In this document: positions 21,487 to 26,228 of the stretch, in pieces | Layout of the letters: each line of letters begins with the position of its first letter | How positions within the stretch are numbered: position 1 is the first letter of the stretch | Notes under the pieces: model-generated | The model's input: the letters and a program-made list of their open reading frames with translations, nothing else | What the model was told of the DNA's origin: nothing | Database searches by the model: none | Made by a program: the position numbers and the translations under genes | IMG/VR virus record: IMGVR_UViG_3300005529_000780 | Span: 1-28,213 of that record | DNA length: 28,213 nucleotides | Strand: one strand, 5' to 3' | Source of the DNA: a virus

Positions 21487-21656
21487 AACCGTCCGTCGAT
21501 CCCGAGATTTTTTACACCACGGTGGAATCGGTCCACACCCGCGACCTCTTCGAGTTTGCCGGCATGGAATGCGTGATGCCGGTGATCGAGCACCGCACCA
21601 CCACCCCGCTGCGCGACGACGGCTCCTGCCACCTCAGTTTCCATTCCCTCTCCTAG
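21483..21656 (+). CDS. Small hypothetical early protein, 57 residues
   Basis: This short frame begins MKPSVDPEIFYTTVESVHTR, contains EFAGMECVMPVIEHRTTTPL and ends SCHLSFHSLS. Its ATG overlaps the previous stop and its stop lies 2 nt before the next gene, so it is well placed in the operon. Two Cys and several His residues could bind metal. No family is recognised. Confidence 0.5.
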   Translation: MKPSVDPEIFYTTVESVHTRDLFEFAGMECVMPVIEHRTTTPLRDDGSCHLSFHSLS

Positions 21657-21658
21657 CA

Positions 21659-22420
21659 ATGAAAAAAGCCAAAACCGTAGAAGTCGAAGTCATCACCTCT
21701 GAGCCGGATCAAAAGACGCTGGCAAAGCTCGCGCCTGAGATCGAGAAGCGGGAAAAATCGATGCTCCGCAAGGGGATCGATTTCAAATACGAAGTCGTCG
21801 CGCTCGGGCTTCTCTACAAAAAAGCGCAGGTGGCGTTTCGCTGCGACCCCGGCTATATGGCGCTCTCGTCAGGTGGAAACGTTTCCACCTCAAATAATGG
21901 GCAGGAGGATGGTTTCTACGCGTGGTGCGCGGCGCGAATGAAAGCGCCTTACGAGACGCCGGAGGAACGCAAAAAGTTTCGCAACAATGCGCGTTCGATC
22001 CGCAACTACATGATCGCCTGCGAGAATGCCGGTTTAACAAGTGAAAGCACGCTGGCGGATGTGGCGGCGGCGAAAAAGAGACACATCCTGCACGACAAGA
22101 CTCTCACGGAGCTTTACCGGCTCAAGGACAAGACCGAGACAAAAGACAACGGCGACGGCGAAACCGCGCCCAACCTCCACGCCGACGTGCTGGCCGATCT
22201 CGCCTCCGTGTGCGACTCGGTGCGGGCGCTGCGGGAGGATTTCAAGCCGGATGAGTTTGACACCGCGTGCAACACGCTGCGCGACACGCTCGCGGAAATG
22301 ACCGGCGAGGCGCTGGTGCATCGCGAGCATGGCGAAATCGTCGCGCACGAGGATGGCGCGTTTGCGCCCGTTGTCGGTGGTAAAAACGGCAGCGGTAAAA
22401 AACGGGGAGGACGCCGATGA
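21659..22420 (+). CDS. Early protein of unknown function upstream of transposase
   Basis: This 253-residue protein begins MKKAKTVEVEVITSEPDQKT. A helical region FKYEVVALGLLYKKAQVAF, then FYAWCAARMKA and KFRNNARSIRNYMIACENAG, distantly recalls DUF3102-type phage proteins; this is uncertain. The C-terminus is a helical segment (LADLASVCDSVRALREDFK) and a basic Gly/Lys tail. A 20-bp perfect palindrome lies inside the gene at 21871-21890, encoding GGNVST. It overlaps the transposase by 4 nt, so it may be translated with it. It may be a transposition or replication partner. Confidence 0.55.
   Translation: MKKAKTVEVEVITSEPDQKTLAKLAPEIEKREKSMLRKGIDFKYEVVALGLLYKKAQVAFRCDPGYMALSSGGNVSTSNNGQEDGFYAWCAARMKAPYETPEERKKFRNNARSIRNYMIACENAGLTSESTLADVAAAKKRHILHDKTLTELYRLKDKTETKDNGDGETAPNLHADVLADLASVCDSVRALREDFKPDEFDTACNTLRDTLAEMTGEALVHREHGEIVAHEDGAFAPVVGGKNGSGKKRGGRR
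21871..21890. other. 20-bp perfect palindrome inside an early gene
   Basis: AGGTGGAAACGTTTCCACCT is fully self-complementary with no spacer and encodes G-G-N-V-S-T in the gene's frame. It lies well inside coding sequence, not at a promoter. It may be a protein-binding site or an RNA/DNA hairpin. Its flanks (C on both sides) do not continue the symmetry. Confidence 0.75.
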
Positions 22421-24120
22421 GCCTCACCAACCAGAGTGCCTGGCAGCGCGCCCGCGCGATCAAGCTGCACGAGCATTTCAAGGCGATTGCAGTGCGGCTG
22501 CAGGGGCGAGGGGTGAAGATCGGCGAGGAACTGAAGCGCACCGCGCATTTGCTCGACGGGCGCACGCTCCATTTCCACGGCGGCAGCCACGTGCTGCGCG
22601 CCTCGCCGCAGACGCTGCGGCGCGAGTGGGACCGCTGGAACGCCGCCGGCCCACAGCGTCGCACGGCCAATGCGCTGCTGCTGCAATACCGCGCCGGCTG
22701 CGGCGGTCGCCGCGCCGTGCCGGCCAAGCTGGTGGCGGAGATTCATCGCCGCGCCACCATGCCCACCGGCGGGCGCGACAAGCATCGGCGCGCGCCGATG
22801 AGCCAGGTTTACAAAAGCCTGTGCGACGATTTTCTCGCGCGCCGTCCGCTGCCGGGGATCGATTATGCCGACTGGCCGGAGGGGGCGGAGTTCCCGTGGT
22901 CGCAGGCGACGATCCTGCGCAAGAAACCGGCACGCGCCCTGCGCCTCGGCGGCAACCTCGGGTTTGCGGCGCAAAAAGGGGCGAGCGCCTACGTGCTCAT
23001 GGATTACTCGGCCCTGCGCAAGTGCGAGCTTTACACGCTGGACGACGTCCGGCTCGACATCCTCTGCATCGACCCGCGCACGGGGCAGGCGGTGCAGGTG
23101 GTCTGCTACGTGATGATGGAGGTCGCGAGCCGGTTCATCGTCGCCTACCTGCTGATGCCGCGGCATGCGATCAACGCGATGGTCGTCTCCGAGCTGCTCG
23201 TGCACGGCCTGCAAACGCCCGGCTTCGGCATCGGCGTCGGGTATAAAACGCACATCCTTTTCGAGCGCGGTGCGACCGCGTGCAGCGAGGCGGAGCAAAA
23301 GGTGCTCGAAACCCTCACGGCGACCCTGGAGGGCGTGACCGAGGAACCGCAAAGCGGGATCAAGGTTCACCGCACCTCGATGAACGGCGGGGTCCGCTGG
23401 GTGGGCGCGCCGCGCGACAAGGCGAGCGGCAACGCCGCCGGAAAAGGCGTCATTGAAAGTTTCAACCGCCGGCTCCATTACGCGTTGCTGCATCTCCCCG
23501 GCCAGCGCGGCAACCACTGGGCCAACACGCCCGAAAACCTCGGCTTGAAAAAACTGGGCGAACGCGCCGCGCCCGGCAGCCTGGTCGCCGAGGCGGAAAA
23601 GCTGGCGCGTTTCAATGCCGAGCACGGGAACCGCCTCGCACTCAAATTGCCGCTGCTCACCGTGCCGCAGCTCCACGCGGCGGTGAAGGATGCCATCGCG
23701 CGGCACAATCACGAGCCGGGACACGCCTACACCGACCACGGCAAATTTACCGAGGCCGAAGTCTCGCCCGGTGTCTGGCGTCCGCTGCCGGATGATGCGA
23801 CCGAAGTAGCCGAGGCACTCCAGGCGGCGACGCCGGATGACACGGCGGTTTTCGATGTGCCGCCGGCTCCCGCGGAAAGCGGCGCGAAAACCTACACGCT
23901 CAAGGCGCCGGCACGTCCCGCCGGCCAGGCGATCTCGCGCGGACAGCGCTTCGCCATTTTCAACCGGCTCTGGCCGCAGGCGGAAGCCGCGCAGCCGCAG
24001 CTCAACCGCTTCGCGCTCATGCAGCGCGTCACCGGTTGCAACAATCTCGCCAAAATGGACGACGCGCAGTTTGCGCAGTTCATCGAGGTGGTCAGCAAAA
24101 TCGCAGCGAAAAAATCATGA
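22417..24120 (+). CDS. Transposase, MuA-like catalytic subunit (rve/DDE)
   Basis: This 567-residue protein has an N-terminal DNA-binding helix-turn-helix region (about 1-80, VLRASPQTLRREWDRW), then an RNase H-fold core. Alignment by eye to MuA places D1 in LYTLDDVRLDILCID (209/210), the second acidic residue in ILFERGATA (Glu283, where MuA has Asp336) and the last in GKGVIESFNRRLHY (Glu347). The E-x63-E spacing is near MuA's D-x55-E. There is no beta-barrel after the core; instead the C-terminal 60 residues include FALMQRVTGCNNLAKMDDAQ, which is GemA/DUF1018-like. The missing barrel is in the next frame. It joins phage ends to target DNA. Confidence 0.8.
   Translation: MSLTNQSAWQRARAIKLHEHFKAIAVRLQGRGVKIGEELKRTAHLLDGRTLHFHGGSHVLRASPQTLRREWDRWNAAGPQRRTANALLLQYRAGCGGRRAVPAKLVAEIHRRATMPTGGRDKHRRAPMSQVYKSLCDDFLARRPLPGIDYADWPEGAEFPWSQATILRKKPARALRLGGNLGFAAQKGASAYVLMDYSALRKCELYTLDDVRLDILCIDPRTGQAVQVVCYVMMEVASRFIVAYLLMPRHAINAMVVSELLVHGLQTPGFGIGVGYKTHILFERGATACSEAEQKVLETLTATLEGVTEEPQSGIKVHRTSMNGGVRWVGAPRDKASGNAAGKGVIESFNRRLHYALLHLPGQRGNHWANTPENLGLKKLGERAAPGSLVAEAEKLARFNAEHGNRLALKLPLLTVPQLHAAVKDAIARHNHEPGHAYTDHGKFTEAEVSPGVWRPLPDDATEVAEALQAATPDDTAVFDVPPAPAESGAKTYTLKAPARPAGQAISRGQRFAIFNRLWPQAEAAQPQLNRFALMQRVTGCNNLAKMDDAQFAQFIEVVSKIAAKKS
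24109..24120 (+). promoter_or_regulatory. Possible frameshift site: A6 run before ATGA overlap
   Basis: Six A residues at 24109-24114 precede TCATGA, where the catalytic transposase frame stops (24118-24120) and the barrel frame begins with ATG (24117). A -1 slip on the run would read AAA ATC ATG ATC and fuse the two frames without meeting a stop. Re-initiation at the ATGA is the simpler alternative. Confidence 0.45.
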
Positions 24121-25058
24121 TCTACCGCAACGCTCATCTCCCGACCCTCCCGCCCGCGCCGGTGGCGCCGCAGCAGGCCACACGCCTGCGCGAACGCACG
24201 AACGATCCCGCCCGCGAATACGCGCGCCGCCCCGGCACCGTGCAGCCGTTGCCCGATTGCGTGGCGGCGGTGATCCTCTGCAAGACCGGTTTTGCGGAGG
24301 TGGACCGGCACCAGATCACGATCACGCTCGAAGGCGAGCGGCTTTACTTTTCCAGCAGCGACTCGGTGACGATCGCGACCAAGAACGGCACCGGGCAAAA
24401 GGTGCTCTGGGCGATCAACCGGCGCGCGCCGGATGTGCTGCATATTCTGGACGAAAGCGGCGCTTACGTGGAGTCGATCCCGCTCAAGGACCGCGCCAAA
24501 TGGTTCGACGAAAGCGAGGCCAGCCGCGAGGCGCTGGCGGAAGCCCGCCGGCACATCGGGCGCGACATGGCCCGGCTCGCGGAGCTGCACCAGCCCGAGA
24601 CCCGCGAGGCGGTCGAGCGCGAGCAGCACAACGCCCGCGAGGTGCAGCAATATCTCGTCAACACTTTCCCGGCGGCAGGCAGCGACCGCGCTCACGCATC
24701 GGATAAACAAGAACAAGATAAGATCATCGCGCCGCGCCGGGAATCTCTTTTAACCGCATTCGCAGGTCGAACGCAGACGAAAGGCGCGACAGCCGACCCG
24801 GAGCGAGACGAATGCCCTGCTGCGCTCGTTTTGCAAGACGCGCGCAGCAGTAATTTTTCCCGCGCGCAAGGCGTCGCGGCAGCCATCGAGAACGTCGAGC
24901 ACCAGCGCGAACGCCACGCGGGCAAACAACGCTCGCTCGCCCGCCGCGTTGCTGCCGTGACCGACGACGACATCGACGCGCTCACCAGCGCCCCGCGCGT
25001 GCGCAACCCCGCGCCCGCCACCGCTGCCCCGGCGGAAGACATCGACTCAATCCTTTAA
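24117..25058 (+). CDS. Transposase C-terminal subunit: Mu-type beta-barrel plus helical tail
   Basis: This 313-residue protein has a linker at residues 1-60. The segment 64-120 (HQITITLEGERLYFSSSD to HILDESGAYVESIPLKD) aligns by eye with the MuA beta-barrel (domain II-beta) in strand order and ending. A basic/acidic helix follows (REALAEARRHIGRDMARLAE), like MuA domain III, the part that contacts MuB. Residues about 195-313 look disordered and are drawn from a different base composition. It overlaps the catalytic gene by ATGA and lies 48 nt upstream of the MuB-like ATPase. It probably completes the transposase in trans or by frameshift. Confidence 0.6.
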   Translation: MIYRNAHLPTLPPAPVAPQQATRLRERTNDPAREYARRPGTVQPLPDCVAAVILCKTGFAEVDRHQITITLEGERLYFSSSDSVTIATKNGTGQKVLWAINRRAPDVLHILDESGAYVESIPLKDRAKWFDESEASREALAEARRHIGRDMARLAELHQPETREAVEREQHNAREVQQYLVNTFPAAGSDRAHASDKQEQDKIIAPRRESLLTAFAGRTQTKGATADPERDECPAALVLQDARSSNFSRAQGVAAAIENVEHQRERHAGKQRSLARRVAAVTDDDIDALTSAPRVRNPAPATAAPAEDIDSIL

Positions 25059-25106: not shown

Positions 25107-26228
25107 ATGGTAACAATAGCCACAGCAGAAAACACAATCGCCGCCGAGGAACCGCCAGAAACCGCGCCGCCCACGGACGCGCAGATGGTCCAGCGCAATC
25201 AGAAATACCGGTTGCCCGGCGACCAGGTCTACAAGGCCACCCAGCACATGCCGGATGCGCAGCGCAGCGCGATTCGCTGGCTGCATCACCACGGCGTCGA
25301 TAACAACCTCGACCTCGAGGAGCTGGGCGCGATGATCAAGCAGCCCGGCGGCAAACCCTACAGCCGCGACTCCGTTTACCAGCTCCTCACCGGGCGTCGC
25401 GAAGCCGGCATCGAGAAGATGGTGCAAGCGATCGAGCGGCTGAAAAAGCTGATCGAGTCGCGGCGCGTGGTCAACAAGCTCGGCTTCATCGAGACATCGC
25501 TCACGCGGAAAATTTTCAGCGTGTGCGAAGCGGCGTTGACCTATCAAAAAATCGTCCAGATTTTTGGCGATTCGCAGATTGGAAAAACCGAGGCGCTGGA
25601 GGAATACGCGCGGCAAAACAACCACGGCCAGACCATCTACGTGCGCGTGCCGGAGGGCGGAGGGCTCAACTACTTCATGGCCTCGCTCGCAGACCGGCTC
25701 GGCTTTTCCAGCCAGCAGAAAATCCCCGAGCTGCGCGCCCGCGCCATCGCGTCCTTCGACAGCCGGATGCTGCTGATCGTCGATGAAATCCACAACATTT
25801 TCTCGACCGGCACCAACCTCACGCACTTCCGCGTGCCGGAGTTCATCCGCGAGATTTACGACCGCACGAAATGCGGCGTCGTCATCTCCGGCACGAACGT
25901 GTTTGAGGCCAAGCTCGCGAAGGCCGCGGGCAAAAAATTGTTCGACCAATTCCAGCGCCGCAGCCTCTGCAAGCTCCAGCTCCCGAACATCCCGACCGAC
26001 GACGATCTCGACACCTTTGCCGCCGCGCACGGGCTCCCGCCCGCCACCGGCGAGGCGTTCGAGGCGCAGACCACGATCATCACGCACGACGGCCTCGGCG
26101 TCTGGCTCACCTACCTGCGCGCCGGCAGCCACATGGCCACGAAAAAGAACAATAAGTTTACGTGGGAATGGGTGCTCAAGGCCCGCGACACGATTCTGGC
26201 GCTCGGGGAAATGAAGGGGGCGAAATGA
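25107..26228 (+). CDS. MuB-like AAA+ ATPase (target DNA activator)
   Basis: This 373-residue protein has an N-terminal helix-turn-helix-like region (about 52-100, LEELGAMIKQPGG, YSRDSVYQLLTGRRE), as in MuB. Walker A follows at 154-161 (GDSQIGKT) and Walker B at 222-227 (LLIVDE, then IHNIF). A sensor-1-like segment CGVVISGTN and a C-terminal helical domain complete it. MuB polymerises on DNA with ATP, captures targets and stimulates MuA. It directly follows the transposase subunits. The length is slightly above MuB's 312 residues because of the N-terminal extension. Confidence 0.85.
   Translation: MVTIATAENTIAAEEPPETAPPTDAQMVQRNQKYRLPGDQVYKATQHMPDAQRSAIRWLHHHGVDNNLDLEELGAMIKQPGGKPYSRDSVYQLLTGRREAGIEKMVQAIERLKKLIESRRVVNKLGFIETSLTRKIFSVCEAALTYQKIVQIFGDSQIGKTEALEEYARQNNHGQTIYVRVPEGGGLNYFMASLADRLGFSSQQKIPELRARAIASFDSRMLLIVDEIHNIFSTGTNLTHFRVPEFIREIYDRTKCGVVISGTNVFEAKLAKAAGKKLFDQFQRRSLCKLQLPNIPTDDDLDTFAAAHGLPPATGEAFEAQTTIITHDGLGVWLTYLRAGSHMATKKNNKFTWEWVLKARDTILALGEMKGAK

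Follow-up and report, generated by a model that had tools for sequence, protein, structure and literature searches.

The locus described here raises the question of why a MuA-type transposase is encoded in two frames, and whether these frames give one fused protein, two separate subunits, or the remains of a broken gene. The whole stretch of DNA that was analyzed (the window) is a 28,213-base IMG/VR record, and it represents a Mu-like phage of soil Verrucomicrobia. It shares 11,784 bases at 100% identity with a contig of the soil Spartobacteria MAG Centralia_MAG_443, and because of this identity the two may not count as independent assemblies. An earlier note on this DNA had described two coupled frames of 567 and 313 residues with an A6 run at their junction, and we confirmed both the coordinates and the -1 relation of the second frame (Table 1). 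The locus carries a conserved two-gene form of the MuA-type transposase, and the frameshift part of the earlier reading is rejected. Our main reading, to which we assign a probability of roughly 0.8, is that the two cistrons encode a heteromeric MuA-type transposase whose catalytic and barrel/domain III parts are separate subunits, next to a MuB-like ATPase.

Table 1. Features of the transposase locus, in positions of the window
Feature	Position	Strand	Basis
Gene 5' of ORF1, ATGA overlap with ORF1	21651..22420	+	gene calls; without family match
ORF1, putative catalytic and end-binding subunit of MuA-type transposase, 567 aa	22417..24120	+	phrog_310, hhalign, invariant acidic residues
Predicted three-helix C-terminal tail of ORF1, residues ~505-567	23929..24117	+	AlphaFold2 helices, alignment of 8 tails
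Junction AAAAAATCATGA, ATGA stop/start overlap	24109..24120	+	A6 run specific to the window locus
ORF2, putative barrel and domain III-like subunit, 313 aa	24117..25058	+	hhalign with shuffle controls
MuB/TniB-like AAA ATPase, directly 3' of ORF2	25107..26228	+	AAA_22, TniB, phrog_296

The product of the gene that follows ORF2 matched AAA_22 (1.9e-12), TniB (5.6e-9), and the DNA transposition protein family phrog_296 (7.9e-25), and a Walker-A gene was found 3' of ORF2 in the window and in all five relatives with enough flanking sequence. The product of the gene upstream of ORF1 found no family match in Pfam and PHROG searches; a similar gene precedes ORF1 in two of the related loci (L016 and L017). 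Since this gene and ORF1 share an ATGA overlap, and four other gene pairs of the window also overlap by 4 nt, such an overlap is ordinary gene packing in the window phage.

The same split, which the earlier note had proposed to seek in related phages, was found in ten further loci with the same two genes, whose ORF1 proteins are 40-58% identical to that of the window. These relatives were obtained by an order-wide genome search together with alignment-based scans; scanning viral contigs and an annotated phage collection with single sequences returned no relatives. Two of the loci (L016 and L017) come from separate genomes of the same order, one from a genome of the same class (L040), and seven from IMG/VR contigs (L023-L026, L030, L032, and L034). 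In a maximum-likelihood tree of the catalytic part, the 11 split loci, including the window, form one clade with a support of 97/94, and the one-frame proteins fall outside it, the nearest being L007. The one-frame relatives compared were L005-L011, L013-L015, L018-L020, and L041, and an alignment of eleven one-frame Verrucomicrobiota proteins served as the reference A5. A phylum-wide search of Verrucomicrobiota genomes with ORF1 found, apart from one fragment, only single frames of about 680-870 codons. The MAG of the window phage (G001) also holds two more Mu-like transposases, L014 and L015, with 714 and 841 codons in one frame each. Whole-gene dN/dS was about 0.2-0.4 for ORF1 and ORF2 in four pairs, with ORF2 evolving somewhat faster, indicating that both frames are under purifying selection. 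Because the arrangement recurs in 11/11 loci of the clade, it is more than a product of chance, and the split is a real, old, and stable natural design.

The earlier note had taken ORF1 to be the catalytic part, stopping where MuA would go on into its barrel, and the profile comparisons bear this out, the end of ORF1 falling where the barrel begins in the one-frame proteins. Residues 49-438 of ORF1 match positions 148-451 of the 696-column phrog_310 transposase profile (E 7.6e-17), and the ORF1 family aligns to columns 79-468 of A5 with an E value of 1.4e-47 (hhalign). The acidic residues D209/D210, E283, and E347 are invariant across the split clade. Judging from these alignments, the catalytic core of ORF1 is related to that of MuA and has the conserved acidic residues. 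At the second position of the DDE triad, these proteins appear to have Glu, and a D-E-E triad in ORF1 and its relatives is possible. E283 (23263-23265) is invariant in 25 proteins, comprising every relative in the tree, whether split or one-frame, and stands in contexts such as ILFERG and LLENG; the second catalytic acid of Mu-like phages is Asp, within DN(G/T). A helical tail of about 60 residues ends ORF1 in 8/11 split loci, as seen from the aligned tails, and AlphaFold2 predicted its helices at 508-525, 531-539, and 549-563, with pLDDT mostly 83-89. The early-branching split loci L032, L034, and L040 have an ORF1 without this tail, and so do the one-frame relatives. Thus, the tail arose after the split or was lost in these three loci, and the split does not need it. 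By eye, the tail resembles the start of Mu GemA; hhalign gave an E value of 0.06 over 27 columns, and we do not claim this likeness.

ORF2 had been described as barrel- and domain III-like, a description now supported by sequence profiles, the structure models being of low confidence. Using hhalign, the profile of 11 ORF2 sequences matched the C-terminal part of the one-frame relatives with an E value of 2.7e-15, and the ORF2 family matched A5 columns 481-641 with an E value of 7e-12. When compared with a profile built from five MuA-family C-termini, those of Mu and of four related phages, the same 11 sequences reached a score of 46.3 (E 4.4e-6), and in the controls for this score the best of 150 column shuffles gave 21.1 and the reversed alignment 16.9, so that 0/150 scored as high. 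This match covers MuA from about residue 474 onward, namely the barrel and domain III, and the homologous core of ORF2 spans approximately residues 20-187. The MuA-family profile was required, as the comparison of ORF2 with MuA alone was not significant; ORF2 had no Pfam or PHROG family match, and a PDB sequence search returned nothing relevant. The profile matches argue that ORF2 is homologous to the barrel/domain III region of MuA-type transposases, here sited on a separate protein. Because A5 columns 79-468 take the ORF1 family and columns 481-641 the ORF2 family, the two proteins appear to be collinear parts of what elsewhere is one protein. The AlphaFold2 models, which were run with five sequences, had a mean pLDDT of 49.5 for ORF2 and 53.8 for ORF1. 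The low-confidence ORF2 model shows seven strands at 60-122 followed by helices at 134-182, and this predicted order, in which two long helices come after seven strands, fits a barrel plus domain III, although the model is poor. Foldseek and VIA-align searches with the low-confidence models gave generic strand or propeller matches, with no MuA match and no significant PDB match; since the models are weak, the missing structural match does not count against a barrel. Most ORF2 proteins also carry a shared short motif near the start (RNIH, TNIH, or similar), separated from the core by a variable linker, which fits genuine initiation at this site.

We propose that ORF1 and ORF2 would be translated as separate proteins, with translation probably coupled via the overlapping ATGA in four loci, the window included, and initiated independently elsewhere, and that the two proteins would assemble non-covalently at the phage ends. 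There, ORF1 would bind the ends and cut and join DNA, and ORF2 would hold the target DNA, its domain III part contacting the MuB-like ATPase of the neighbouring gene. In the Mu protein, IIbeta and IIIalpha are non-specific DNA binders, target recognition involves the barrel, and the contact with MuB is made by IIIbeta (PMC3362531; PMC3562280). A more tentative extension, which we give somewhat less than an even chance, is that the catalytic and barrel/domain III subunits are free proteins that assemble in unequal numbers, which would let target capture and contact with MuB be regulated or exchanged independently of catalysis. The strongest competitor of the heteromeric transposase, which we nevertheless consider unlikely, is that ORF2 is homologous to the barrel/domain III region but now has a role separate from catalysis, such as that of a target or MuB adaptor outside the transpososome; this would suit a gene of its own that can lie 1 kb from ORF1, next to MuB, and whose evolution is somewhat faster than that of ORF1. 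However, ORF1 is without its own barrel in 11/11 loci, and most insertions in IIbeta or IIIalpha are not tolerated by MuA (PMC3362531), so the barrel function is probably required and supplied by ORF2.

Two separately translated subunits must also be weighed against programmed -1 frameshifting at the A6 run, raised by the earlier note, which would yield a fusion of about 880 residues, alone or alongside both subunits. The geometry of the window permits such a shift, as ORF2 is read in frame -1 relative to ORF1, the A6 run stands right before the ORF1 stop with the ATGA overlap just after it, and the -1 frame is open for 276 nt upstream of the ORF2 ATG. However, the conserved A-runs that the earlier note had proposed to look for in relatives were missing, the A6 run being absent from the junctions of 10/10 relatives, and ORF1 contains no in-frame X_XXY_YYZ slippery heptamer. 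Since the window has 14 A6+ and 16 T6+ runs in total, the run at its junction is unremarkable. The spacing between ORF1 and ORF2 is -4 nt in the window, L016, L023, and L026, and -8 nt in L032; it is 2, 5, and 37 nt in L017, L040, and L034, and 194, 562, and 1039 nt in L024, L025, and L030, respectively. Genes or frames intervene in three relatives, namely a short frame in L024, a 116-residue gene matching phrog_29525 (E 1.1e-9) in L025, and several small genes in L030, the first two with an ATGA overlap. Among the intervening genes of L030 (L030:6749-7788) is one for a Cys-rich protein of 90 residues, which had no PHROG match. In L024, L025, L030, and L034 the ORF2 frame closes before reaching the ORF1 stop, and thus a single shift could not fuse the two proteins in these four loci. 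The conserved in-frame slippery site of an ORFAB-type frameshifted transposase is therefore lacking, and programmed frameshifting is very improbable, although low-level slippage at the window junction alone is conceivable. The last explanation, that one frame was broken by sequencing error or by decay of the window copy, might be suggested by intact one-frame relatives in the same phylum, two of them in the same MAG, but it is practically excluded by the ten other split loci, as the one-frame relatives sit elsewhere in the tree, outside a clade in which 11/11 loci are split at spacings beyond any single base change, and both genes are under purifying selection.

MuA is the model for large DDE transpososomes, in which all domains are present on every subunit, yet catalysis is performed by only two (PMC3562280). 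With the catalytic domain naturally separated from the barrel/domain III, one could test directly which domain must come from which subunits, and how many of them are needed. We infer that the split falls near MuA residue 455-461, adjoining the regions at 460 and 474-479 that tolerate insertions (PMC3362531). Insertions in the 474-479 loop raise the activity of MuA, and this loop is contact-free in the complex (PMC3362531); because the split lies close to it, evolution may have cut the MuA-like chain at a tolerant joint. As ORF2 lies outside the current Pfam and PHROG families, a transposition gene is left unannotated in these phages.

In the open-access literature, which was the scope of our search and excludes subscription papers, we found no precedent for a split MuA or a similar protein. 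The window resembles phage Mu in the order of end-binding, catalytic, barrel, and domain III parts followed by the MuB ATPase gene, and its proteins show profile similarity to MuA (663 aa) in both the N-terminal/catalytic and the C-terminal parts. In contrast, MuA is one polypeptide, whereas the window and its ten relatives use two cistrons, so the design that the earlier note had set apart from MuA is kept throughout these relatives; the second catalytic acid, Asp in Mu-like phages, also appears to differ, being Glu here. The one-frame MuA-type transposases of Verrucomicrobiota contain apparent collinear homologues of both ORFs and the same invariant acidic residues, but they are single frames of about 680-870 codons, have no tail on the catalytic part, and lie outside the split clade. 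Tn7 has a heteromeric transposase of TnsA and TnsB, in which the catalytic and C-terminal parts of TnsB remain joined and a nuclease has been added as the extra subunit. Thus, the window and Tn7 are alike in building a transposase from more than one protein, but in the window it is the MuA-like chain itself that appears to be divided.
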